In this document: positions 13,234 to 27,665 of the stretch, in pieces | How positions within the stretch are numbered: the first letter of the stretch is position 1 | Layout: every line of letters starts with the position of its first letter | Assembly: GCA_016776875.1 (NCBI GenBank) | Contig: JADHSN010000004.1 | Coordinates: forward strand, 1 to 38,039 | Source of the DNA: Gammaproteobacteria bacterium | GTDB taxonomy: Bacteria > Pseudomonadota > Gammaproteobacteria > Arenicellales > UBA868 | Direction: 5' to 3' | Length of the DNA: 38,039 nucleotides | Made by a program: the position numbers and the translations under genes | Notes under the pieces: generated by a model | Seen by the model: the letters and a program-made list of their open reading frames with translations, nothing else | Databases searched by the model: none | What the model was told of the DNA's origin: nothing

Positions 13234-14775
13234 ATGAGTCGCATAGATAGGAATCGCGCGCGAAAAGAGCGCCGCGCGAGTCGCAGTGGGGCGGGTATTT
13301 CTCAGATCGGGTTTGGTCCGCTTAATAATCGCTATCCCCCGATTAATCCTTTGTCCGAGGCGCAGGTTGAAGAGATTCACAACGCTTCGCTTTGCCTGCT
13401 GCGTGACTCTGGAATCGAAGTGATGAGTGCTTCGGTCCGGGCTCAATTTCGCCGCGAGGGTGCGTCTGTTGATGACGATACGGGAATTGTTAAGGTTGAT
13501 CCCGAAATGATCATTGAGTTAATCGCTCGGGCCCCTCGGGAGATTCGACTCACTCCTCGTAATAGTGATCATACGGTAACACTCGGCGGCTCCCAGGTGA
13601 ATTTCGGCGCCGTTTCCGGTCCGCCGAATGTGCACGATTGCGTTCAAGGTAGGCGGGCTGGTAATTTTGCTGATTACAAGAAATTAATCAGTCTCGGACA
13701 AGCCTTTAACGTCATTAGCGTATTCGGAAATCAGTCGGTAGCGACCACGGATCTTCCAGTGCCGACCCGTCATCTGGATTGCTACGAGGCCAATTTAACT
13801 CTGACGGATAAGATTTTTTCTGCGATACCGATTGGGAAAGAACGCGTCGTTGACGCGGCACACATGGTCGCAATTGCTCGAGGCATTAGCCTGGATGAGT
13901 TGCATCGGAGTCCTGGTTTGATCGGTAATATCAATATTAAGTCGCCGCGAAAGTTAGATGAGGCAATGTCTGATGGGGCATTGGCGCTCGCCGAGCTCGG
14001 TCAGGCTGTTATCGTAACGCCGTTTACACTTTTGGGTGCGATGACGCCAGTCACAATGGCTGCTGCCCTGGTACAGCAAAATGCGGAGGCTTTATTGGGC
14101 TTATCAATGATACAGATGGCGTTCCCCGGAAGCCCTGTGGTCTATGGCGGATTTACATCTAATGTTGATATGCGATCAGGCGCACCAACTTTTGGAACGC
14201 CAGAAAATGCAAAGGCGAATCTTGCCGGAGGGCAGATGGCCCGTCGCTACGGATTGCCGTACCGCACGAGTGCCTGTAATGCGTCAAATTTGGTTGATGT
14301 CCAGAGTACCTATGAGACCCAAATGGCACTGTGGGGCGCCGTAATGGGGCACGGGAATCTTGTTTATCATGCCGCGGGATGGCTAGAGGGTGGCCTTGTC
14401 GCATCTTTTGAGAAATTTGTGATTGATGTGGAAGTGATTCAGCATTTGTCCGAAATGCTGAAACCGATTGATACCTCTGTAGATGAGCTCGCGGTTGATG
14501 CGATCTCCGGGGTTGAGCCAGGCGGACATTTTTTTGGGGCGGAACACACCATGGAGCGATACGAGTCTGCGTTCTACACGCCGTTTTTAAGTGATTGGCA
14601 AAATAATGAAAACTGGCAAGCGGCTGGCGCCAAAGATACGACCCGTCGGGCGACGGAGATCTGGCAATCAGTTTTGGAAAATTTTGAGCCCCCTAAATTA
14701 GATGATGATCGACGCGATGCATTAAGCGAGTATGTTCAGAGACGGAAGCGGGAGATTGGAACGAAAGAGGTGTGA
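13234..14775 (+). CDS. MttB-family (COG5598) methyltransferase without pyrrolysine codon
   Basis: 513 residues matching the trimethylamine methyltransferase (MttB) family over its whole length: PLSEAQVEEIHNASLCLLRDSGIEV near the start, FGAVSGPPNVHD, and in the second half GGFTSNVDMRSGAPTFGTPENA and YRTSACNASNLVDVQSTYET. Archaeal MttB needs pyrrolysine encoded by in-frame TAG; here the frame has none, as in the glycine betaine methyltransferase MtgB branch. Characterised members pass a methyl group to a corrinoid protein, but no corrinoid protein or reactivase gene is visible nearby. The N-terminal 25 residues are strongly basic. TGGAGGA (13218-13224) supports the ATG at 13234. Substrate unknown; a quaternary amine or related compound is plausible. 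Confidence 0.87.
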   Translation: MSRIDRNRARKERRASRSGAGISQIGFGPLNNRYPPINPLSEAQVEEIHNASLCLLRDSGIEVMSASVRAQFRREGASVDDDTGIVKVDPEMIIELIARAPREIRLTPRNSDHTVTLGGSQVNFGAVSGPPNVHDCVQGRRAGNFADYKKLISLGQAFNVISVFGNQSVATTDLPVPTRHLDCYEANLTLTDKIFSAIPIGKERVVDAAHMVAIARGISLDELHRSPGLIGNINIKSPRKLDEAMSDGALALAELGQAVIVTPFTLLGAMTPVTMAAALVQQNAEALLGLSMIQMAFPGSPVVYGGFTSNVDMRSGAPTFGTPENAKANLAGGQMARRYGLPYRTSACNASNLVDVQSTYETQMALWGAVMGHGNLVYHAAGWLEGGLVASFEKFVIDVEVIQHLSEMLKPIDTSVDELAVDAISGVEPGGHFFGAEHTMERYESAFYTPFLSDWQNNENWQAAGAKDTTRRATEIWQSVLENFEPPKLDDDRRDALSEYVQRRKREIGTKEV

Positions 14776-14805: not shown

Positions 14806-15420
14806 TTACAACCCTTGGAGTGTCTTCGATAAAGTTGATAGAACTCTTTTTTTAATCAGGATTTGCGCTTTTTGGTTTGGGTGAAGTCCGTCGGCCTGGA
14901 GCAGTTGCGGGTCGCCAAAAATCTCATCGAATACTGACGGGATTAGAATGATATCGAATTGATCTGAGAGTTCGCGATAAATTGAACGAAACGCATCGCG
15001 ATAGGCAGACCCATAGTTTGCGGGAATATCCATTTCAATGAGGGCGATCGCCGCGCCATTAGATAGACCGGCTTGGATCATCGTTGAGAGATTTGACTTA
15101 ATTGCTGGAGGAGCATGACCGCGAAGGCCATCGTTGGCTCCCATTTCAATGATGACAAGGCTGGGTTGGTACCGCTCAAGGAGGCGGGGTAACGACTGTT
15201 TTGCTCCCGCTGTGGTCTCGCCACTCACAGAAGCGTTGATAAACTTCAATCTGCTTCCAAAGTCCTGCTGCGCTAAATGTACCCAGCCAGCATCTTCGGG
15301 CATTTGATAGGCAGCGCTCAGCGAGTCTCCCAGGACAAGAATAATCGGTTGATTCCCATTCGCGCCGAAACTGACGATCCATATCCCTAAACCGAGAATA
15401 CATGATTTGAAGAACGTCAT
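14806..15420 (-). CDS. tesA: Arylesterase / acyl-CoA thioesterase I TesA (SGNH hydrolase)
   Basis: 204 residues from the ATG at 15420, with an N-terminal hydrophobic segment ([20 protein letters not shown]) acting as a signal peptide. The four SGNH blocks are visible: LGDSLSAAYQM with nucleophile S33, SGETT with G67, GANDGLRG with N96, and DGLHPNQKA with D177 and H180. TesA is a periplasmic esterase/thioesterase/lysophospholipase. A longer in-frame start (15528) would run into ybbA and lacks a signal. It is divergent from ybbA, as in E. coli, with the two coding starts overlapping by 14 bases. Confidence 0.93.
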   Translation of the reverse strand: MTFFKSCILGLGIWIVSFGANGNQPIILVLGDSLSAAYQMPEDAGWVHLAQQDFGSRLKFINASVSGETTAGAKQSLPRLLERYQPSLVIIEMGANDGLRGHAPPAIKSNLSTMIQAGLSNGAAIALIEMDIPANYGSAYRDAFRSIYRELSDQFDIILIPSVFDEIFGDPQLLQADGLHPNQKAQILIKKRVLSTLSKTLQGL

Positions 15421-16081
15421 ATTAAGAGCCAATAAGCTAGTTCGCGATGTAGAGGGTCCGTCTGGAACATTGAGAATACTTGATAACGTCTCGTTCGAGA
15501 TAGCAAAGGGGGGATCAATTGCGATCACGGGCCCCTCTGGATCGGGAAAGTCTACCTTAATCTCTTTATTGGCCGGGATGGATCTTCCATCTCAAGGAGA
15601 GGTCTTTATTGGCGACCAAGATCTAAATCTGCTGGATGAGGACGGTCGCGCCAAACTCAGAGCGGGCAGGGTGGGGTTTGTATTCCAGTCTTTTTACCTC
15701 ATCGAAACATTAACTGCACTAGAAAATGTGATGCTGCCATTAGAGCTGGCAGGTATCTCAAATGCAAAAGAGGTTGCGGGCAGTTGGTTGGCGCGAGTAG
15801 GGCTTGAGAATCGTGGTGATCACTACCCGCAACAGTTATCCGGGGGCGAACAGCAGAGGGTCGCGCTCTCTCGCGCGTTCGCAATTGAGCCGGAGTTGCT
15901 TTTTGCCGACGAGCCGACGGGTAATCTGGATGACGAATCTTCAGCGCAGGTCACAGAGTTGCTCTTTTCTTTTTGCCACAATCGTGACTCAGCTTTAATT
16001 CTGGTGACTCATGATGCGAGTTTGGCGGCCCGATGTGAAAGAAGGCTACGACTCGTTAACGGCCGGATAGTGGAAGCATAA
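15407..16081 (+). CDS. ybbA: ABC transporter ATP-binding protein YbbA
   Basis: 224 residues, LolD/YbbA-type ATPase: Walker [10 protein letters not shown] (residues 42-50), Q-loop [21 protein letters not shown], signature LSGGEQQR, Walker [13 protein letters not shown], and H-loop LVTHD. It starts at a TTG (15407). The only nearby ATG (15402) is out of frame and stops at once, and the fold needs residues from this point. It pairs with the FtsX-like permease that begins one base after its stop, and diverges from tesA. In E. coli the unit is linked to periplasmic or outer-membrane transport, with the substrate not established. Confidence 0.92.
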
Positions 16082-16082
16082 A

Positions 16083-18578
16083 GTGAATTCGACTTTTTTT
16101 TATTCGTTGCGCGAGATTCGGCGGGATTGGCGGGCGCGCGAGATTGTGGCCTTGGGTATGGCGGTGGCGATATCAGTAGGTGCAGTCACCGCAGTACTGG
16201 GTTTTGCGGATCGGGTCACTAGTGGCTTGGAGAGAAGCGCGGGCGAAGTAATTGCTGCCGATATAAAGCTCGCCAGTCGTGAAGAATTTCCGAGCGAATT
16301 TTCGGAAAAGGCGCTTGAATTAGGGCTAAAGGTGGCGCATACGGTGTCTTTTCCGACCGTTATCTTTGATGACGGAAGGACGCTGTTAAGTTCTGTTAAA
16401 GGAGTCAGTGATCGATATCCTTTGAGGGGTGAACTTCAGGTTCAGACCGTTCAAACCGGGTCAAGTGTTGTTACCGCTCATGCAATTCCGGCCCGGGGCG
16501 AGTTATGGGTGGATGCCCGGGTGCTTTCGTCCATGGATTTAGCGCTTGGGGATCAATTAAAACTCGGGGAAAAGTCGTTTACATTGGGGGCTGTGCTGAC
16601 CTATGAGCCAGATCGAGGAGGACAGTTCTTCAGTTTTTCACCGCGACTGATGGCCAACATTACAGATCTTGAAGAAACGGGTCTTCTGGGTCCTTCGAGT
16701 CGCGCACGTTATGCCTTGTTGGCTGCGGGCCCTTCGGAGGTGGTGGAGCAGTTCGCCGCTATCGTTGATGATTTGCCATCTCCAAAATATACGATCATTG
16801 ATCTTGAATCGGCTCAGGAGCAAGTCGGGGCAACTGTCACCACATCAAGAGACTTTATTGGAATGGCAACCCTTGCGACGCTCTTGATTGCAGGGATTTC
16901 AATTGCGGTCGCATCAAGACGATATACAGAGCGCCGACGACGCCACGCCGCGCTGCTTCGTTGTTTTGGAGCAACGAGTCGCGAAGTATTGTTAATCTAC
17001 GGTCAGACGCTATTTCTCCTGAGTCTTTTCTGGGGTTTTGCCGGGATGCTCTTGGGTTATTTTGTTCAGGAAATAATGTCGACAATCCTAGGTGAATTCT
17101 TTACAACCGAATTAGGTGAGATAGACATTAATTCAGGTTTAATGGGTCTGTTGCTGGGCACAATCTTGCTTTTGGGTTTTAGTCTTCCGTCACTCTCACG
17201 CCTGACCCGGGTTTCCCCAACAGAGGTGCTTCGCAAAGTTGAACGGGCGCGGTATCAGGGTATCGATAGGGTGTGGCATCTCGTTTCTATCATTATTTTT
17301 TTGATACTGGCTTATACGCAAACCCGTTCGGTAGAGTTGGTTGGATTAGTTTTGTTTGCTGTCGTTGGCGTGCTTGTCGCGATGATGGGATGTAGCGCTT
17401 TTGTGTTGACCGGGTTGCGGAAAATTTCTCGAGGCGTTGGCGTTTCCTGGCGATTCGGACTTGGCCGGCTTTTTCGGGACAGAATGGCAAGCACCTTTCA
17501 AATATCAGCGCTTGGCATTGGGTTGACGGTACTGATCACTTTATCGTTCATTCGCGTTCAACTATTTGAATCTTGGGAAGCAAGAACGCCGGATGATGCG
17601 CCCAACTTTTTTTTCGCTAATATTCAGGATTACGAGAAAAATGCTTTAAAAGTTTTTTTTTCGACGCGGGTAAATTTGACCCCGTCTTTCACCCCAATGG
17701 CCACCGGTCGACTCGTATCGATTAATGGCGCGATCCCCAGCGTAGATGAATACCCGGACCCACGGACTGCTTCACGCATTGATGGCAATTTAAATTTTTC
17801 ATGGTCGGATAAGTTGCCTCAGGGTAATCGACTTGTCGACGGGGAGTGGTGGGATGCAACGACCACCGAGCCGGTCGTTTCGTTAGCGCAAAGCTGGGCA
17901 GAACCCTTGCGCGTCAAGGTTGGCGATCGGATTGGTGTGCGAGTGGGTACTGAGGAGATTGATGCATTGATCGTCAATATACGAGAGGTTCAGTGGGAGA
18001 ATTTCAATCCAAATTTTTTCGTGCTCTTCCCGCCGAATGTGTTCGCTAATGCGCCGCATACATACTTGAGTTCAACTCGCCTCGAAGGTCAGAACCAGGA
18101 TACCCTCGTGTCGCTGAATCAAATTTTTCCGACAATTAATATTATTGATATCGGCGCGATTCTTAAGCAGGTCAGACGCCTGCTGGATCTTGTCGGCCTG
18201 ACACTTAATCTGGTTTTTGGTTTTACGCTTGCCGCAGGAAGTGTGGCGCTCTACTCAGTAATGCAGTACGGTCATGAGGCGAGGGTACGAGATGTTGCAA
18301 TGCTGAAAGTGTTAGGGTGCGATCGCCGGCGGATCATGATGGCCCTGGGCGCAGAGTTTTTAACGATTTCGCTTATCGCAGGCCTAGTCGCGGGGATTTC
18401 TGCGTCGATGATTGGATGGTTATTAGCCGCCCAGATTTTTGATATTCCCTATCAGTTCAACCCCTTTGTTCTAGTTTTTTCAGTCTTTTTGAGTGCTATA
18501 ATCGTCGCGGCTTTAAGCATGTCACATGTTAAACATGCGCTACGAACCGCGCCTAAATTTGCTCTTTTATGGATTTAA
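16083..18578 (+). CDS. ybbP: FtsX-like ABC permease YbbP
   Basis: 831 residues, close to E. coli YbbP (about 800). The layout is an N-terminal membrane segment (EIVALGMAVAISVGAVTAVLGFADRV), a periplasmic domain, then FtsX-type membrane blocks with the conserved RRRRHAALLRCFGATSREVLLIYGQTLF, a middle block with FGLGRLFRDRMASTFQISALGIGLTVL, a second periplasmic domain, and a C-terminal FtsX block with RDVAMLKVLGCDRRRIMMALGAE. The GTG start (16083) directly follows the ybbA stop. With YbbA it forms a MacB/LolCDE-like mechanotransmission ABC system whose cargo is unknown. Confidence 0.92.
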   Translation: MNSTFFYSLREIRRDWRAREIVALGMAVAISVGAVTAVLGFADRVTSGLERSAGEVIAADIKLASREEFPSEFSEKALELGLKVAHTVSFPTVIFDDGRTLLSSVKGVSDRYPLRGELQVQTVQTGSSVVTAHAIPARGELWVDARVLSSMDLALGDQLKLGEKSFTLGAVLTYEPDRGGQFFSFSPRLMANITDLEETGLLGPSSRARYALLAAGPSEVVEQFAAIVDDLPSPKYTIIDLESAQEQVGATVTTSRDFIGMATLATLLIAGISIAVASRRYTERRRRHAALLRCFGATSREVLLIYGQTLFLLSLFWGFAGMLLGYFVQEIMSTILGEFFTTELGEIDINSGLMGLLLGTILLLGFSLPSLSRLTRVSPTEVLRKVERARYQGIDRVWHLVSIIIFLILAYTQTRSVELVGLVLFAVVGVLVAMMGCSAFVLTGLRKISRGVGVSWRFGLGRLFRDRMASTFQISALGIGLTVLITLSFIRVQLFESWEARTPDDAPNFFFANIQDYEKNALKVFFSTRVNLTPSFTPMATGRLVSINGAIPSVDEYPDPRTASRIDGNLNFSWSDKLPQGNRLVDGEWWDATTTEPVVSLAQSWAEPLRVKVGDRIGVRVGTEEIDALIVNIREVQWENFNPNFFVLFPPNVFANAPHTYLSSTRLEGQNQDTLVSLNQIFPTINIIDIGAILKQVRRLLDLVGLTLNLVFGFTLAAGSVALYSVMQYGHEARVRDVAMLKVLGCDRRRIMMALGAEFLTISLIAGLVAGISASMIGWLLAAQIFDIPYQFNPFVLVFSVFLSAIIVAALSMSHVKHALRTAPKFALLWI

Positions 18579-18605
18579 GAGTCGATCTGCGACCACTCTT
18601 TTCAA

Positions 18606-20744
18606 ATGAAAAAACTTTTCAGCACCCCAATTGGATGGATTGTTTCGTCTTTTCTTATTTTTTATTCCGGCTTTGCTTGCGCAGAGGGTGGCGATTTCGC
18701 GATCCCGGTTGTTGAGGAAGATGAAGAGGTGGAAGCGCCACCTCCGGCTCCAGCGCCGATAGCCGGAATTGGCGTCGCCGTTTTGGACACCGGCGTTCAG
18801 TTGGATCCAGCCCTTAATCCGGTATTATTTGTGCCAGGTAGCGCAAGTTATGTGGGTCAAAACCCGTTTGTTGATCTCGCAGAACAAGGAACGCATGGTA
18901 CGGCAGTCGCCCAGATCATTCTGACCCTGACACCCCAAAGTAAGATCTTGTCGCTTCAGACTTCGACGGGATCAACGTCAGTCTCGGGTAGTGCGGTTGA
19001 AGCCGCGCTCATGGCCGCTGCCGCAAATCCAAACATCCGGGTGATTAATCATTCAAACGCGGCACTCGCAGGCGTTTCTGGTGCGGCCATGCTGGCCACC
19101 GCAGTTGCCGATCAGGTCGTTGTAATGCAAGCCGGTAATAACTGGGCGCCTTATCCCGTTGGGGATGCCCGACATGCGCCTGGTTTGTCCGGGAAAGGAA
19201 TCATTGTTGGCGGCTTGGGTCCTGAAGACGAGATGCTCGGATTTGGCAACGAGGCCGGTGATATGGCGCAGCATTATGTGGTGGCGACGGGATCGTCACA
19301 ATTTGCAGATTATTGGGGTACATCGTTCGCAACGCCGCGCGTAAGCGCGTTGGCGGCGGGCTTACGTTTTCGGTGGCCAGATCTGAGGGCTGAGGAGATT
19401 GTTGCGGTGATCAAACGAACGGCGACCGATATGGGTGCGCCGGGAGTAGATGCTAAATATGGCTGGGGAAAAATTAATCCCACAAGGGCTTATTCGCCCA
19501 TTGGACTCGTCTATACGCCATCGGCTGCAGGGACGACAGCGAGTCCAGCCGAGCCCGCCGAAGAAGAGGCGCCGAGCGAGGATGACGTGGCGTCAACAGA
19601 GGTCTCTTTGCATCGGCTTACCGTTGGAGTACCCCTTTTCAATGCGTTGAAAGGAAGTGGATTTTTTGAGCGCGTGTTGGTTTTTGATCAGTTTAATCGA
19701 GATTTTAATTGGAATCTTTCCGCCTCACTCAAAGAGCAGGGCGCAACTAATTCAGCCCGTTCATTTTATTCTGATTGGCGGCGTGGGAAGACACCCGCCT
19801 TGATTGGCCAATCATCTGCTCATCAAATTTTTTCATTTACGCTCCCTCAATTTAACAAGGATCAGGCGACAGATCCTGTATTACTTGTCAGCACCTTGAA
19901 TGAGCAAGGACTTCAGAGTCACCTCGGGTTTGGGGTGCTTCCAAAGGCTAAGTCTGACCCCTTTCTTGCAATGGCATTGAAAGGGTTTTTAAATCCGAGC
20001 AGTTTCTTGAATAGCAAAATCCGTCTCGGGGACTATGATGCTGATGGCGTACATAGCCTAATTGCTTTTGACGCTACGCCTGACGTAGGCTTTGATCTAA
20101 GATATTCAGATATCGATGATACGAGTGACAATAATTATCAAGGGTCTCAAATCACGGCGGGCTCGCACGTCAAGTTTGGGGATTTTGGCGCCACTATTGA
20201 GGGTGGATGGTTATCAGAGGGCAAGAGTCTTTTTGGTGGAACCGCGAGCGGGCCTTTCGCCGTTGATCACGCCGAAACAAGATTCCTCAGGTTTTCGGGC
20301 TATCGAATGCTCTCGGCACAAACCGCTTTGGTTGGATCGGTGACGGGAGGATATACGGAAGTTCGTTCAGAGACTGGTTCATCTTTGAGTAATTTCTCTG
20401 ACTTGGTTTCCAGTGCTTGGATGTTGGGCTTAAGCACCCGTGAGGTTTTTAAACTCGGAGACAGCGTTTCGCTAACAATTGCCCAACCGCTCAGTATCAA
20501 CTCCGGGTCTGCTGATGTGGATATCGCTTACGGCATCGACCCAAATAACCGAGTGTTGCGACATCAGGATCGAATTAATTTTGCGACTAGCGGGGTTGAG
20601 GGATTAGTGGAAGTTGGATATCGGATGCCCTGGACAGATCAATTCGATATTGGCGCCTATCTCTCGCTTCAATCTCAAATAGTCGGGTCCAGACTCCAGA
20701 CGCTTGATCCGCAGTTCCTGTTGGTTGGGCGATCTTCCTTCTAG
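18606..20744 (+). CDS. Secreted S8 subtilisin-like protease with probable outer-membrane barrel
   Basis: 712 residues. The signal peptide ends about residue 26 (SGFACA), followed by an acidic, proline-rich stretch. A compact subtilisin domain spans about 50-300 with catalytic D61 (VLDTGVQL), H97 (GTHGTAVAQ), oxyanion asparagine in AGNN (178/179) and S240 (GTSFATPRVSALAAG). An acidic A/E/P-rich linker lies near 305-330. The rest (about 330-712) is poor in helix signals and rich in alternating polar/hydrophobic strands with G/S/N turns, ending in phenylalanine, as in autotransporter barrels. The catalytic domain is short for this group. It starts 27 bp after ybbP. Substrate unknown; surface processing or nutrition is likely. 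Confidence 0.85.
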   Translation: MKKLFSTPIGWIVSSFLIFYSGFACAEGGDFAIPVVEEDEEVEAPPPAPAPIAGIGVAVLDTGVQLDPALNPVLFVPGSASYVGQNPFVDLAEQGTHGTAVAQIILTLTPQSKILSLQTSTGSTSVSGSAVEAALMAAAANPNIRVINHSNAALAGVSGAAMLATAVADQVVVMQAGNNWAPYPVGDARHAPGLSGKGIIVGGLGPEDEMLGFGNEAGDMAQHYVVATGSSQFADYWGTSFATPRVSALAAGLRFRWPDLRAEEIVAVIKRTATDMGAPGVDAKYGWGKINPTRAYSPIGLVYTPSAAGTTASPAEPAEEEAPSEDDVASTEVSLHRLTVGVPLFNALKGSGFFERVLVFDQFNRDFNWNLSASLKEQGATNSARSFYSDWRRGKTPALIGQSSAHQIFSFTLPQFNKDQATDPVLLVSTLNEQGLQSHLGFGVLPKAKSDPFLAMALKGFLNPSSFLNSKIRLGDYDADGVHSLIAFDATPDVGFDLRYSDIDDTSDNNYQGSQITAGSHVKFGDFGATIEGGWLSEGKSLFGGTASGPFAVDHAETRFLRFSGYRMLSAQTALVGSVTGGYTEVRSETGSSLSNFSDLVSSAWMLGLSTREVFKLGDSVSLTIAQPLSINSGSADVDIAYGIDPNNRVLRHQDRINFATSGVEGLVEVGYRMPWTDQFDIGAYLSLQSQIVGSRLQTLDPQFLLVGRSSF

Positions 20745-20885: not shown

Positions 20886-22130
20886 ATGACAGTTGAATCT
20901 GAAAAAAGCGTCGAACGAACGCCTCGTCAACACGGGGCGATGGAGTTCAGTGAGGCACCCGTTGATCTAGACACCGTTCGGCAAGATCGATTATCAAGAC
21001 TTCGGTTATCAATGGCCAAGCATGATGTTGCAGGGTTACTCCTGTTTGATCAAATCAATACACGGTACGCGACGGATGCGACCAACATGCAAGTGTGGTG
21101 CTCGCACTATGAAACGCGGTGCGTGTTTATTGCCCAGAACGGCCCGGTCGTGCTGTTTGACTATGCGAACCATCCCCATCTTGCCGAAGATTTGCCGGGA
21201 ATAGATGAATACCGAGTGATTCCCTCTTTTTATTTTTTTTCGGCCGGACCGAATGGTCCTGATCGCGTAAAGATTTTTGCAGACCAAATAGATGATCTAA
21301 TGAGAGCGCATTGCGGTGATGACCGGGTGCTCGGCGTTGACCGTTTATCGTTTCCAGCCTGTGACGCGCTCCGAGATCGTGGGTTGATTTTGGTTGAAGG
21401 CGAAGGTGTTTGCGAAAGGGCACGCTCCATAAAATCTGTTGGGGAATTGGAGTTAATGCGTGCATCGATGGCAGTCTGTGAGGCCGGATGCCTCTCGATG
21501 AAGGCTGCGCTTGAGCCCGGTATTACTGAAAATGCGCTTTGGGCGAAACTCCATGAGACAAATATTCGATTGGGGGGTGAATGGATAGAGACGCGTCTGT
21601 TGTCGTCAGGTCCGCGAACCAATCCATGGTTCAGAGAGTGCTCAATGCGACCGATCGAAAGAAATGACCTTGTCAGTTTCGATACCGATTTGATTGGGCC
21701 GTACGGATATTGCTCGGATATTTCCCGCTCTTGGTTGTGTGGAGACTGCCCTAGCGACGAACAGCGGCGTTTATATTCAGCCGCTTTTGAGCAAATTGAA
21801 ACCAATATTGCCGCACTTCGGCCCGGCCGAACATTCCATGATGTGTCGACGGATTGTTGGCGTATCCCGGAGGAGTACTTATCTCAACGTTATCCGTCGC
21901 TTATGCATGGGGTGGGGCTTGCGGATGAGTATCCCAGCATTAAGCACGAGACAGACCTGGATACCCGAGGTTATGAAGGAACGGTAGAGCCGGGTATGGT
22001 GCTTTGTGTAGAGTCATTTATTGGGTCGGTCGGGGGGCGTGAAGGCGTGAAACTTGAGGAGCAGGTTATCATTACTTCCACCGGTACCGAGCGAATGTCT
22101 ACCCTCGATTTTGAGATGGACTGGCTTTAA
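20886..22130 (+). CDS. dddP: DddP-like DMSP lyase (M24 metallopeptidase fold)
   Basis: 414 residues with a creatinase/prolidase-type N-domain and a C-terminal pita-bread metal domain. It closely resembles, from memory, Roseovarius/Ruegeria DddP, which cleaves dimethylsulfoniopropionate to dimethyl sulfide and acrylate: YATDATNMQVW, GGEWIETRLL, SGPRTNPWF, SFDTDLIG, LMHGVGLADE and EPGMVLCVE. The metal-ligand positions of DddP all align: D266, D268, D278, H341, E376, E391; so do the proposed catalytic D347 (six after H341) and Y336 (five before). A related M24 hydrolase with another substrate remains possible. TAAGG (20869-20873) precedes the ATG. It is first in a run of five close genes. Confidence 0.75.
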   Translation: MTVESEKSVERTPRQHGAMEFSEAPVDLDTVRQDRLSRLRLSMAKHDVAGLLLFDQINTRYATDATNMQVWCSHYETRCVFIAQNGPVVLFDYANHPHLAEDLPGIDEYRVIPSFYFFSAGPNGPDRVKIFADQIDDLMRAHCGDDRVLGVDRLSFPACDALRDRGLILVEGEGVCERARSIKSVGELELMRASMAVCEAGCLSMKAALEPGITENALWAKLHETNIRLGGEWIETRLLSSGPRTNPWFRECSMRPIERNDLVSFDTDLIGPYGYCSDISRSWLCGDCPSDEQRRLYSAAFEQIETNIAALRPGRTFHDVSTDCWRIPEEYLSQRYPSLMHGVGLADEYPSIKHETDLDTRGYEGTVEPGMVLCVESFIGSVGGREGVKLEEQVIITSTGTERMSTLDFEMDWL

Positions 22131-22151: not shown

Positions 22152-23129
22152 ATGAAGATCACCATTGATTGCTTGCAATACTGTAACTGGTCACGCGATA
22201 TTTTTGAGCAGATGCGTGAGGGAGGCCTGGATGCGGTTCATGTCACGATTGCTTATCACGAAGATTTTCGTCAGACGGTCGATCGAATCTCGAAATGGAA
22301 TCGCCTGCTTGATCAGTACAGCGATTTGATTCAGCCGGGGCGGACGGCGGACGACGTTTTGCGCGCCCGCGACACGAATAAAACGGCTATTTTTTACGGG
22401 TTCCAGAATTGTTCTCCGATCGAATCGGATATTGATCTCGTTGAGATCTGTCATCAGCTTGGCGCGCGATTTATGCAACTTTCGTACAATAACCAGTCGT
22501 TATTGGCGACCGGCTGTTATGAGTCAGATGATCCAGGCATTACCCGAATGGGAAAACAGGTTATCGCGGAAATGAATCGAGTGGGGCTGGTCGTTGACAT
22601 GAGTCATTCTGCAGAGCGCTCGACGTTGGAAGCGATAGAGTGCTCCACGCGGCCGATTGCCGTTACTCATGCGAATCCATCACGCTGGCATCCTGCTTTG
22701 CGGAATAAATCCGATTCAGTCCTTCGCGCACTGTCGGAGTCCGGCGGCATGATTGGATTTTCGCTTTATCCGCATCATCTAGCTGAAGGTAGCGCATGTA
22801 CGTTGGACAATTTCTGTCAGATGATCGCAGATACGGCCGATGATATGGGAATTGATCATATCGGGATTGGCTCAGACCTTTGTCAGGACCAGCCTGATAG
22901 CGTGGTCGAATGGATGAGAAATGGCCGTTGGACCCGTGAGAAGGATTTTGGTGAGGGATCCAAGGCATCCCCTGGATTTCCTGATCAACCCGCTTGGTTT
23001 AAAGATAACCGCGACTTCCCGTCGCTAAGGGCAGGATTGAAGAAAGTTGGCCTGAATGACGCCGCGGTGAACGCTGTCATGGGAGATAACTGGCTACGTT
23101 TCTTTGAGAAATCATTTGGCCCCGCGTAA
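22152..23129 (+). CDS. Peptidase M19 (membrane dipeptidase) family protein with incomplete metal site
   Basis: 325 residues with the M19 (renal dipeptidase) fold pattern: VDMSHS (H142), AVTHANPSRWH (H163, H170), HIGIGSD (D242) and the C-terminal MGDNWLRFF. The usual N-terminal DGHND metal motif is replaced by IDCLQY, so the first zinc-binding His and Asp are absent. The bridging glutamate position (GxEG in classical members) appears as Q85 in YGFQNC. A two-zinc dipeptidase mechanism is therefore doubtful; a one-metal hydrolase or another amidohydrolase-like activity is more likely. It lies 21 bp after the DddP-like gene and 30 bp before the next gene. No signal peptide, so cytoplasmic. Confidence 0.82.
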   Translation: MKITIDCLQYCNWSRDIFEQMREGGLDAVHVTIAYHEDFRQTVDRISKWNRLLDQYSDLIQPGRTADDVLRARDTNKTAIFYGFQNCSPIESDIDLVEICHQLGARFMQLSYNNQSLLATGCYESDDPGITRMGKQVIAEMNRVGLVVDMSHSAERSTLEAIECSTRPIAVTHANPSRWHPALRNKSDSVLRALSESGGMIGFSLYPHHLAEGSACTLDNFCQMIADTADDMGIDHIGIGSDLCQDQPDSVVEWMRNGRWTREKDFGEGSKASPGFPDQPAWFKDNRDFPSLRAGLKKVGLNDAAVNAVMGDNWLRFFEKSFGPA

Positions 23130-23159: not shown

Positions 23160-24887
23160 ATGAATTCCGACGTTGATCTATTGACCGAAAAGGAAGCCGT
23201 GAGTAACGGTTTTTTTTCGGACACCGTACCGCTACGACCGCCCGAAATGGTGTGCCGGATGGAGCGGATGGGAGCTGCGTTTCCCACTCGATTGAGTTTT
23301 ATCCGACTTCTGCTCAGGCGAATGAAAGAGGAGATGTGGAAAATTCAGAGAGTGCGTTTTGATCTGGATGGCTCGGGTTATGGTCGCGCGGTTTATGAGG
23401 TGCATACACCTGATCGTCAATATTCCCTGGCCGCTTTTGCCAATCCGCTCGCAGACCACCAGCGTACCGACCGTGTAATCGCGTCCGCATGGGACGCCGC
23501 GTTTGTCCTGTTTGACGGGAAGCCAACAGAGGGTGATCTGGAGCGCCTTGCTGATAATGCACCGCATCAAGAAGCAGGCCGCTTTGAGGCAACCGATTTG
23601 GTTATTTCTCGAGCTAATCGGAGTATGCGGTTGTTCGAATATGTGTGTGGTTGTCTAGCGAAAGGTGATCAACCCGATGCAGATAAGCTTCTAGAAGTTG
23701 GATATCTCATGCGAACCACAGCGGTCTACGGGAATGGCAAGTTTGGTATCAGCGATCGTTCCAGAATTAACTGGCGTGAAGAGGCTAGAAATTCGTTTCA
23801 AATCGAGATGTTAACAGTTTATTTGATCCGTCTTTTCACCGTGGATCAGCTAGATCATATCGCGAAATGTAGAGCCCCCGACAAGGCGGTTAAACTAAAG
23901 CCTGAACTCAAACGTGCGTTAGGTATAGGTAACGCAACGGGTCTCGGGATGGCGCCTTTTGTTGTGAGTCACCCTGAGTTATTCCATGAATGGTTTCACG
24001 CTCGGGAAACTGCGCTCGCACGAGTGCGCGCGCTCGACTTCGTATCACAAGAAAGCATTGACCGTGCTACAGCCCTTGCACAACGCGTTCTGGGCCATCT
24101 TGAGCAATGGCATTCGGGTGACCTGGAGTATCAATCAAGAAATCAACGACTCGGGGAGGATCTGAAGACTCTTCTGAGTTGGTTGTCCGATGGTTCAGCG
24201 TCCGGTATTCGTGAGCGGTTTTGGGATGATACGGTTCGAAAGAGTGAAACGGCGTTTGGCGTTGATGCCCAGGAATTGCTTGTTGCTTTACTTATCGAAA
24301 CATATCCTGAATGTGTTGAAGATCTTGAAAAGTCTTTTCATTCATCTGAGACACGAAGAATTGATGTTGCGATGACGGTAGCAGAATTTCGGGAACAGTT
24401 TGATAAGCAGTATGCTTGGGTCGATCAGTATGACTTTTCGACAGACGCAGAAAATACACATTTCTGGTATGTCTCTGAAAACAAACTTGAACCCCGTTTT
24501 GGCCGTCGACGTGAGGAGCCGGGGGCGGATAAGGAAATGCCCGTAGCGATTGCTCGAGATATGTCCGCGCTAAAAGGCGGTTTGGCGGCATTTGATCAGG
24601 CTGCGAGTCTTGCAGAGTTTCTGATTGCACATCCCGAATTCAGGCATTTAGTGCGACGGGCCCAATCTCTTTCGGACTTGCCTTACGGCGAGATACAGGA
24701 CAATTTGATCGCCGACGGTACTTCGCCACTCGATATCCTGCGATTTAAGCTTGCGAATTTTGGTGCAGCTAAGTTTGACCCAAAGTCAGCTCTTTGGACC
24801 CGAATTACGATGTTTCAAGGCGCGCCGTTACCGGAAGATTTAGATGGAGATTTAACGGATGACTGGTGGCTTCCGACGCTGCCTTGA
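23160..24887 (+). CDS. Large conserved-looking protein of unknown function
   Basis: 575 residues from the ATG at 23160, chosen because AGGAG lies upstream (23142-23146); the frame extends back to a TTG at 23130 that directly abuts the previous stop. I do not recognise a family. The protein is soluble, mostly helical, with no signal peptide or membrane segment. Noticeable segments are RVRFDLDGSGYGRAVYEVHTP, VGYLMRTTAVYGNGKFGISD, ALGIGNATGLGMAPFVVSHP followed by WFHARETALARV, and ENTHFWYVSENKLEPRFGRR. It looks like an intact enzyme rather than a decayed gene: the frame is long and free of interruptions. Its location within the unit and its 22-bp overlap with the DUF3726-like gene suggest the two act together. 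Confidence 0.75.
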   Translation: MNSDVDLLTEKEAVSNGFFSDTVPLRPPEMVCRMERMGAAFPTRLSFIRLLLRRMKEEMWKIQRVRFDLDGSGYGRAVYEVHTPDRQYSLAAFANPLADHQRTDRVIASAWDAAFVLFDGKPTEGDLERLADNAPHQEAGRFEATDLVISRANRSMRLFEYVCGCLAKGDQPDADKLLEVGYLMRTTAVYGNGKFGISDRSRINWREEARNSFQIEMLTVYLIRLFTVDQLDHIAKCRAPDKAVKLKPELKRALGIGNATGLGMAPFVVSHPELFHEWFHARETALARVRALDFVSQESIDRATALAQRVLGHLEQWHSGDLEYQSRNQRLGEDLKTLLSWLSDGSASGIRERFWDDTVRKSETAFGVDAQELLVALLIETYPECVEDLEKSFHSSETRRIDVAMTVAEFREQFDKQYAWVDQYDFSTDAENTHFWYVSENKLEPRFGRRREEPGADKEMPVAIARDMSALKGGLAAFDQAASLAEFLIAHPEFRHLVRRAQSLSDLPYGEIQDNLIADGTSPLDILRFKLANFGAAKFDPKSALWTRITMFQGAPLPEDLDGDLTDDWWLPTLP

Positions 24888-25624
24888 TTGCGGTAATGCG
24901 GCAATCAGCGACCGAGTTTAGGACACTTCTAACGAAAGCGGGACGGGGTGTTGGGCTCTCACCGGGACTCAGTGAAGATCTGGCGCGAGCGTCAGTCTGG
25001 CTACAAGCCTGTGGTTTCGCTGGTGGCCAAGCGGCGCTAGATGCGATTGAAGGCCTGGCCAGTAAAGGTTCTGATCCGGGATTTATTTCTCTGTCGAATC
25101 GATCGGTAAGCTCATCGAGCTCGCGGGGGAATTTATCTAGCGCCTATATTGGTGTACAACTTGCAGATGCTGTTCAATTGGGCTGGCCGTCCATGGGCGA
25201 GCCGTTTTTTTTTCGTGATCTGGATAGCCCGACACTCTCGGCGGCGGCCATCGCGCTCTCCTGTCGCGATCTTGATAGTGGAACTGAACTATCTGCGAGT
25301 ACATCAGACCTTTATTTTTTAAGTCGCCCCCAAAAAGAGGAAATCGTGATTTGCGCTCGCCCGCAAAACCAACCAGATGATGAAATAGGGGTCCATAGCT
25401 TGAAAGTAAGCGCAATCGATTCGGAGGGCGCGTTTTTAACAGCAGAAGTCCTGCTGGACCGAGCGCTAGAAGAACGACGTCTGCAAGAGGTCGATGCGGT
25501 CGGATTGTCTGTGAGTCGCAGTATCGTCGAGAAGCTGCAGCAGTTTGCGGCTTTATTGCTGGTGTCGGAGACCGAGCAATCCCTAAAATTTGGCGCGGGA
25601 GCAGGCCTCGTCGACTCTGACTAG
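24866..25624 (+). CDS. DUF3726-like protein of unknown function
   Basis: 252 residues from the GTG at 24866. A TTG at 24884 (a 4-base TTGA overlap with the upstream stop) and an ATG at 24896 are alternative starts. The N-terminal LTKAGRGVGLSPGLSEDLARASVWLQACGF resembles, from memory, the opening of DUF3726 proteins; the match is by eye. The middle and C-terminal parts are acidic, with no catalytic motif seen and no membrane segment. It overlaps the 575-residue gene upstream and ends 4 bases before the MFS start, so it is firmly part of the unit. Confidence 0.65.
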   Translation: MASDAALIAVMRQSATEFRTLLTKAGRGVGLSPGLSEDLARASVWLQACGFAGGQAALDAIEGLASKGSDPGFISLSNRSVSSSSSRGNLSSAYIGVQLADAVQLGWPSMGEPFFFRDLDSPTLSAAAIALSCRDLDSGTELSASTSDLYFLSRPQKEEIVICARPQNQPDDEIGVHSLKVSAIDSEGAFLTAEVLLDRALEERRLQEVDAVGLSVSRSIVEKLQQFAALLLVSETEQSLKFGAGAGLVDSD

Positions 25625-25628
25625 CGGC

Positions 25629-26816
25629 ATGACAAATCGATGGTGGAAACTAGCGGGCGTCTGGTTTCTCTACATGAGTTTTGGTTTGTCGATGGCAAGT
25701 CTGGCGCCGCTCGTCGAAGAGATTGAGAGCAGCCTTCGATTCTCGCACGCCGCGATGGGCAGCGTTATGGCGGCCTGGCAGTTTATTTATCTTTTTGCCG
25801 CAATCCCGGGCGGTCTTCTTCTTGATCGAATCGGGGCAAAATGGGGCCTTGCAGCCGGGGCTCTGGTGATCGGGGTCTCGGGCATTCTTCGGGGAGTTGC
25901 GGATAGTTACGTTGAGTTGCTGCTGGCCGTTTCGTTGTTTGGCCTTGGGGGGCCTTTGATATCTGCGGGCGCTCCGAAAGTTGTTAGTGAAAATTTCACC
26001 GGATCCCAAAGAGGATTCGCGATGGGGATCTATATTTCAGGTCCGGGTGTGGGTGCGATGATTGCACTTCTGGCGACGCAACCTATTTTATTACCCATGA
26101 TGGATGGTAACTGGCAACGACTCCTTCAATTGTGGGGCTTGATGAGTCTTGCCGCAGGTAGTTTTTGGTTGTGGGTGGCGAGACATGAGCACAGGCATCG
26201 GTCGGAGTCGGAATTTGGTCGGGAGATTTTTGCGAATCTGAAAAGCTTGCTCCGTATTCCTGCCGTTCAGCTGATTTCGGTGATGAGCATCGCCGTATTT
26301 GGGATAAACCACGGCATGGGAAACTGGTTAGTAGAAATCTTGAAACAGTTGGGATTAACTGCTGAGCAGGCAAGTTTATGGGCAGCCGTGCCGGTCGGCG
26401 TTGGGATTTTGAGCGCGCTGACCTTGCCTCGCTTAGCGACCGGTAGAAGACGTTTTCAGATTCTTATTGTTCTTTTTTCAGCATCAGTTGTTGCCAGCAC
26501 ACTTTTGTTATTTCAACCAACCGGTTTGATTTTATTAATGACTCTTGTGTTTGAGGGAATCGCAGCCGGATCAATGATGACCGTATTGTTATTAACACTG
26601 GTGGAGGTGCCGGAAGTGGGCGAGCGACGGGCGGGGACCGCGAGTGGATTTTTTTTTGCAGCCGCGGAAATTGGAGGCGTGGGCGGACCGGTTCTACTGG
26701 GTAGCCTCTTTGCACTTAACGGAAATTTTGATTTGAGCCTCGCCGCATTGGCATTCCTTGGGGTCTTTTTAATCGCAGCGGTCTTCCCATTGCGGAGATG
26801 GCTAAATCCGGCGTAA
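25629..26816 (+). CDS. MFS transporter (CynX/NimT-like)
   Basis: 395 residues from the ATG at 25629, 4 bases after the upstream stop; an in-frame start at 25590 would overlap the previous gene by 35 bases and adds a polar tail. Twelve hydrophobic segments are visible. The first loop motif is GGLLLDRIGAKWGLAAGALVIG, matching the MFS motif A, and the second half begins about residue 205 with a long loop (RHEHRHRSESEFGREIF). The family includes importers of small anions and amino acid-like compounds. As the last gene of the unit it probably imports the substrate or exports a product. Confidence 0.88.
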   Translation: MTNRWWKLAGVWFLYMSFGLSMASLAPLVEEIESSLRFSHAAMGSVMAAWQFIYLFAAIPGGLLLDRIGAKWGLAAGALVIGVSGILRGVADSYVELLLAVSLFGLGGPLISAGAPKVVSENFTGSQRGFAMGIYISGPGVGAMIALLATQPILLPMMDGNWQRLLQLWGLMSLAAGSFWLWVARHEHRHRSESEFGREIFANLKSLLRIPAVQLISVMSIAVFGINHGMGNWLVEILKQLGLTAEQASLWAAVPVGVGILSALTLPRLATGRRRFQILIVLFSASVVASTLLLFQPTGLILLMTLVFEGIAAGSMMTVLLLTLVEVPEVGERRAGTASGFFFAAAEIGGVGGPVLLGSLFALNGNFDLSLAALAFLGVFLIAAVFPLRRWLNPA

Positions 26817-27579: not shown

Positions 27580-27654
27580 TGGCGCTCCCTAGGGGAATCG
27601 AACCCCTGTTTCCGGCGTGAGAGGCCAGCGTCCTAACCGCTAGACGAAGGGAGC
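27580..27654 (-). tRNA. tRNA-Glu (anticodon CUC)
   Basis: 75 bases including an encoded CCA (TGG at 27580-27582 on the plus strand). The acceptor stem GCTCCCT/AGGGAGC pairs fully; the T arm is AGGGG-TTCGAAT-CCCCT; the anticodon arm is CTGGC-CTCTCAC-GCCGG with anticodon CTC. The D arm TCTAGCGGTTAGGA and the overall sequence resemble E. coli tRNA-Glu, which has UUC. It decodes GAG only, so a UUC isoacceptor must exist elsewhere. Confidence 0.97.
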
Positions 27655-27665
27655 ATTTATCGGGT

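Follow-up and report, generated by a model that had tools for sequence, protein, structure and literature searches.

The locus described here raises a twofold question: what does a long, intact protein without a nameable motif do in the cell, and does it work together with the product of the gene that follows it? The protein, 575 residues in length, is encoded in a stretch of 38,039 nucleotides, hereafter the window, from an Arenicellales gammaproteobacterium whose genome measures 1.8 Mb and is 75% complete. A sequence-only reading had drawn attention to this open reading frame (ORF) and to its DUF3726-like neighbour. The family of the 575-residue protein is designated P1 here, and the genes around which the argument revolves are the following:

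20886–22130, plus strand: M24/creatinase-fold protein, DddP-like, probable first gene of the operon (PF00557; NF043017 at 406 of 600 bits, below the DddP cut-off)
22152–23129, plus strand, stop included: M19 (membrane dipeptidase family) homologue with altered metal-site motifs (PF01244, 253 bits)
23160–24887, plus strand, stop included: P1, 575-residue protein, family unassigned (ORF, homologues, confident AlphaFold2 model)
24896–25624, plus strand, stop included: DUF3726 protein with a predicted Ldh2-type fold (PF12525; probable start taken from relatives; fold)
25629–26816, plus strand: MFS transporter, probable uptake system of the operon (PF07690; start ATG 25629 read from the DNA)

The P1 frame runs uninterrupted from ATG 23160 to the stop codon at 24885–24887, and the long intact ORF recognized from the letters alone is thus borne out. 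The same reading could put no name to the protein, and database searches agree: Pfam and NCBIfam returned no family at E ≤ 0.001, comparisons with PDB sequences by phmmer and by profile search gave chance matches only, and a Pfam scan of 16 diverse P1 members produced matches in single members only (best E 0.00076). No match to a characterized family emerged from these searches. Homologues occur in 65 of the 109 genomes of the same order and in 27 of 299 Pseudomonadota genomes, relatives are found on 168 plasmid records, and a scan of a genome collection confirmed at least 576 P1 stretches. Among the matches listed, an Arenicellales MAG is one of the nearest named relatives, and the hosts include marine Alpha- and Gammaproteobacteria, SAR116, Acidimicrobiales and soil Rhizobiales. 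P1 is a widespread and highly conserved family, and its ORF lies far beyond chance. As the hosts span marine and soil groups, the substrate is probably an abundant metabolite. An alignment of 16 sequences, reaching down to 29% identity to the P1 of the window, displays 55 invariant columns, including 13 arginines (R102, R105, R151, R157, R185 and R282 among them), one histidine and no cysteine. Judging by this composition, P1 probably handles an anionic or zwitterionic compound, as an enzyme or as a binding protein, and is unlikely to be a metal enzyme.

The gene immediately downstream had been read as DUF3726-like, an assignment confirmed by a PF12525 match of 31.8 bits against a curated cut-off of 22.1; the same profile is matched by 52 of 53 family members at E ≤ 1. 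The distribution of the two families is tightly linked. Within the order, DUF3726 (PF12525) is present in 54 of 109 genomes, all 54 of which contain P1, and in none of the 44 P1-negative genomes; comparison of coordinates by eye placed all 55 matches next to P1. The DUF3726 profile, which is short, found no match in eleven of the order's P1-positive genomes, in four of which P1 itself is only a fragment. Across the phylum sample, DUF3726 occurs in 25 of the 299 genomes, every one P1-positive, and all 27 matches lie, again by eye, directly downstream of P1; the P1-positive genomes without a match are G325, whose P1 is low-scoring and distant, and G393. A set of 90 loci was also compiled, 80 taken from the at least 576 stretches of the genome-collection scan, nine from plasmids and one being the window itself. 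A DUF3726 profile match accompanies P1 in 87 of them; the three exceptions are L064, whose contig breaks off shortly past P1, and L034 and L039, which belong to a distant clade and show weak matches (E ~0.02).

The two genes are also encountered as one: a P1–DUF3726 fusion of 814 residues is encoded in Mesorhizobium sp. 131-2-1 (L031) and another of 787 residues in a Rhodoferax MAG (L093), and in the P1 tree these two belong to separate, supported clades. The two families are near-obligate partners, genetically almost inseparable. The sequence-only reading had proposed a complex of the two proteins, or consecutive steps carried out by them, and had named missing co-occurrence as a finding that would speak against it; co-occurrence, adjacency and the two fusions in separate clades now back the suggestion. 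There is good support for a P1–DUF3726 complex or for joint action of the two in a single step, and two ‘unknown’ families become one testable unit.

The arrangement of the genes required revision. A 22-base overlap between P1 and the DUF3726 gene (24866–24887) had been described, which depends on GTG 24866 as the start codon. In 17 loci from the same genus, the window's own included, the DUF3726 protein has the conserved start MRQS or VRQS, which usually overlaps the P1 stop by a few bases or sits just after it. In the window this conserved start corresponds to ATG 24896, located 8 bases past the P1 stop, and judging from these relatives it is probably the true start in place of GTG 24866; the overlap would then be a start-codon artefact in this genome. 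Over 74 loci, the start as estimated by a regular expression, whose largest distances look like estimate failures, overlaps the P1 stop in 47 (mostly by 4 bases), follows it by 0–30 bases in 20 and lies further away in 7. Nor is P1 flanked by overlapping partners, as had been stated, for the M19 stop ends at 23129, 30 bases ahead of ATG 23160. The MFS start, ATG 25629, is in frame with the listed TTG 25590. Read from the DNA, the M24, M19, P1, DUF3726 and MFS genes follow one another on one strand with gaps of approximately 21, 30, 8 and 4 bases, which makes a single operon likely. With regard to the partners, the earlier account recognized the DUF3726 neighbour but missed both the upstream M19 gene and the Ldh2-type fold of DUF3726.

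This fold is apparent from the structural model of the DUF3726 protein (pLDDT 87.8, pTM 0.86). All 14 Foldseek matches at E ≤ 0.001 are Ldh2-type enzymes, a group known for NAD(P)H-dependent reduction of 2-oxoacids or imines, and in the VIA comparison 15 Ldh2-type entries score between Z 11.1 and 15.9, the best being 3uoe (208 residues aligned, rmsd 3.3), whereas the next row, unrelated, scores 3.4. At the sequence level, the window protein gave no match to Pfam Ldh_2 (cut-off 38.8 bits), and two divergent members gave weak ones below that cut-off (E 0.00086 and 0.0097, best 19.0 bits). Comparison of the DUF3726 profile with that of neighbouring Ldh2 proteins aligned the N-terminal 44 columns only, with a probability of 47%; as this signal is weak, it is the structural match that bears the claim of a relationship. 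The Ser-His-Gly motif, which holds the catalytic histidine of Ldh2 enzymes, is present in 15 of 17 neighbouring Ldh2 proteins and in none of 53 DUF3726 sequences, and the median length of the latter is about one third shorter (214 versus 336 residues). The modelled fold indicates that DUF3726 is an Ldh2-derived protein, which owing to the missing motif and reduced length is not to be filed as an Ldh2 enzyme.

The AlphaFold2 model of P1, built from an alignment of 78 sequences, is likewise confident (pLDDT 90.6, pTM 0.90). Foldseek detected nothing at E ≤ 0.001 in the PDB (best 0.26) or in BFVD (best 0.29), and VIA-align against 739 chains yielded no row at Z ≥ 5 (best 4.7). These comparisons cover the PDB, BFVD and the 739 VIA chains, and the fold tool may miss single domains in models of more than 400 residues; a new fold is therefore not proven. 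The strongest of the weak VIA rows is the phage Mu protein Mom (Z 4.7, 149 residues aligned, rmsd 4.8), and NAT10-type rows are found too; these rows may be labelled GNAT-like. Homology of P1 to GNAT-like or START-like proteins was considered and not accepted, the rows being weak and no fold match significant. A broader version of this idea, that P1 belongs to a known fold, perhaps one containing a GNAT-like alpha/beta domain, but has diverged too strongly for the searches to detect it, is a serious contender that we place somewhat below an even chance: the size of the model, the scope of the fold search and the Mom and NAT10-type rows are in its favour, and the failure of Foldseek and VIA-align to reach their thresholds counts against it.

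The third member of the module is the gene upstream of P1, whose product matches Peptidase_M19 (PF01244) with 253.2 bits against a cut-off of 26. An M19 homologue was found at 81 of the 90 loci, and at 70 it shares the strand of P1 and lies no more than 4 kb upstream. Nine loci are devoid of it in the DNA examined; since six of these extend over ~9.5 kb or more upstream, the M19 gene appears usual and not obligatory. Canonical M19 enzymes have a dinuclear zinc site formed by an HxD motif, a bridging glutamate and two histidines. Motif tallies over 80 of the homologues reveal that HxD is absent, with IDxLQYxNW in its place, that the glutamate of the EG motif is changed to glutamine and that both His motifs are retained. 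The nearest solved chain, 2i5g, an ‘amidohydrolase’ (E 1.5e-64, residues 3–321 of 325), is also without HxD in the alignment; we take it to be Pseudomonas aeruginosa PA5396 and, presumably, the product of P. aeruginosa pepD.

The wider neighbourhood varies between clades. In Aminobacter the order is LysR, ALDH, M19, P1, DUF3726, Ldh2 and a glycine-betaine-type ABC transporter; in Phaeobacter, LysR, ALDH, M19, P1 and DUF3726 are adjoined by a gene annotated as DMSP demethylase. The plasmid of Phaeobacter inhibens DSM 17395 carries P1 in two places. In Mesorhizobium the fused gene is found near a trimethylamine-methyltransferase-family gene and one for an FAD oxidoreductase, and in Vibrio and Caballeronia loci a BCCT transporter gene (PF02028, E 6.6e-150) is inserted between M19 and P1. 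The distant Ensifer locus comprises IclR, P1, a DUF3726-like gene, M19, a solute-binding ABC transporter, an aminotransferase, SSADH and two RidA genes. Over the 90 loci, ALDH is encoded upstream of P1 in 25, Ldh2 within 4 kb of P1 in 23, BCCT within 4 kb upstream in 10, the M24 protein within 4 kb upstream on the same strand in 8, and a glycine-betaine-type solute-binding protein or an MFS transporter downstream in 7 each. The ALDH is closest to alpha-ketoglutaric semialdehyde dehydrogenases, with a score far under the cut-off (459 of 770 bits).

Several further genes were noted in passing. Solved relatives of the window M24 protein are 4rzy and 4b28, and two M24 copies surround the P1 module in L048 and L055. 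Positions 13234–14775 of the window encode an MTTB-family methyltransferase (PF06253; TIGR02369 at 296 of 525 bits), probably a non-pyl-type relative judging by its intact frame, which recurs near P1 in a few loci. Genes for a LolD/YbbA-like ATPase, a YbbP-like permease and a subtilase-family protease stand in a row at 15407–20744 and are kept in L041 and L042, and a candidate tRNA gene, seen by eye, lies at ~27580–27655 on the minus strand between the operon and the poly(A) polymerase gene. In Mesorhizobium a SAM-dependent carboxyl methyltransferase gene (PF03492, a family associated with plants) is found directly downstream of DUF3726 (L063, 12232–13335; L067, L072, L098). Directly upstream of M19–P1–DUF3726, L089 (7989–9011), L088 and L097 encode a histone-deacetylase-family amidohydrolase (PF00850). 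Complete sets of three-subunit molybdenum-hydroxylase-type genes (CODH/xanthine-dehydrogenase family) occur near P1 in L085 (13284–16992), L078 and L054, and would be of interest if the substrate were an N-heteroaromatic compound.

Taken together, these neighbourhoods point to the uptake and breakdown of a betaine-like or cyclic amino compound, and the BCCT and glycine-betaine-type transporters, ALDH, Ldh2 and demethylation enzymes nearby suggest betaine catabolism in particular. As demethylation-family genes are very common in these genomes, their nearness to P1 is weak evidence, and an enrichment of such genes around P1 was considered and dropped for the same reason. Among the papers covered by a literature search, none describes these genes and none mentions DUF3726.

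The reading that we favour, with roughly even confidence, is that P1 and DUF3726 are two subunits of a cytoplasmic catabolic enzyme, usually accompanied by the M19-like homologue, that degrades an imported zwitterionic betaine-type osmolyte. The substrate would be imported by a BCCT, glycine-betaine-type ABC, solute-binding ABC or, in the window, MFS transporter, and since transporter types vary by clade, substrates may vary too. The P1:DUF3726 complex would then perform an unusual first chemistry, at a guess the activation or opening of an N-methyl heterocycle; the many invariant arginines of P1 would suit a carboxylate-bearing substrate. The M19-like protein may hydrolyse the amide or enamine formed, what is left of the carbon backbone may be broken down by ALDH, Ldh2, RidA or the M24 protein, and N-methyl groups may be removed by MttB-, DMGDH- or Sox-type enzymes. 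Against one joint explanation stands the distant Ensifer-type clade with its different gene context. A far bolder form of the proposal, to which we give little credence, holds that P1 is a new fold which, with its dehydrogenase-derived partner devoid of the usual catalytic motif, opens or activates the quaternary N-heteroaromatic ring of homarine or a similar compound by chemistry unlike the known oxygenase route of trigonelline breakdown.

It seems equally improbable that P1:DUF3726 has no catalytic role of its own and instead serves a nearby enzyme, Ldh2 or the M19 homologue for example, as chaperone, regulator or cofactor-insertion complex. DUF3726, lacking Ser-His-Gly, does resemble a degenerate copy of the Ldh2 protein often encoded beside it, and the six loci with long upstream flanks and no M19 gene fit such a role. 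However, P1 has many invariant polar residues along its whole length, as enzymes do, and the pair is retained at loci that have no Ldh2 or M19 gene nearby.

Homarine (N-methylpicolinate) is the most likely single compound that can be named, and is put forward tentatively because the marine spread, the betaine transporters and the combination of hydrolase, aldehyde-oxidizing and reducing steps fit it. A role for Mgd in homarine catabolism has been reported (PMC13390433), in which case N-methylglutamate would be an intermediate. A SoxA-family match at E ≤ 1e-200, which does not separate Sox from Mgd, is present in 19 of 27 P1-positive and 63 of 272 P1-negative genomes (Fisher p ~1e-6, relatedness not controlled, eight exceptions). 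The SoxA family is taken to include MgdC, and this co-occurrence lends weak support to a homarine/Mgd route. The eight P1-positive genomes without a SoxA-family gene at this threshold are gammaproteobacteria (families f23 and f24), and its absence argues against an N-methylglutamate/Mgd route there. More credible than homarine as a named substrate, and judged only a little short of even, is that the module degrades some other betaine-type or cyclic amino compound (carnitine, stachydrine, hydroxyproline betaine, trigonelline or a DMSP-like molecule) with homarine uninvolved, and clades may differ in this respect. The occurrence of the module in soil and plant-associated Rhizobiales, the affinity of the ALDH for alpha-ketoglutaric semialdehyde dehydrogenases, the genes annotated for DMSP demethylation that adjoin the Phaeobacter copy and the variation of transporter families between loci all point in this direction; yet a complete known pathway gene set for these compounds was recognized at no locus.

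Should homarine be the substrate, a large flow of carbon would be tied to an enzyme through this module. In surface water the compound reportedly makes up as much as 3% of particulate carbon (PMC8269262), values that a correction describes as overstated (PMC10134881).

How does the module compare with known systems? Sosa et al. 2026 reportedly describe a conserved homarine catabolic pathway, and its likeness to the proposed role of the module lies in a betaine substrate, environmental bacteria and the reported involvement of Mgd. The homarine operon presumably bears the name homABCDER, a term that the literature search did not find and whose letter count would fit ALDH, M19, P1, DUF3726, Ldh2 and the LysR regulator. 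If the published pathway names these genes, the biology is known, and the present work adds the DUF3726–Ldh2 link, the partnership statistics and the remark on the P1 fold. A second parallel is offered by Vibrio natriegens and P. aeruginosa, where a dipeptidase gene (pepD) and a hypothetical gene precede dgcAB (PMC12093977). The likeness consists of a predicted dipeptidase beside a hypothetical gene in a betaine-catabolism locus, and the available part of that account mentions neither P1 nor DUF3726 (PMC12093977). With respect to the M19 membrane dipeptidases (PF01244), the homologue described here differs in its lost HxD and its EG glutamate-to-glutamine exchange. With the type-2 malate/L-lactate dehydrogenases (Ldh2, PF02615), a family that includes ureidoglycolate dehydrogenase, sulfolactate dehydrogenase and delta1-piperideine-2-carboxylate reductase, DUF3726 differs in being shortened, devoid of Ser-His-Gly and under the Pfam cut-off, and shares the predicted fold over nearly its whole length.
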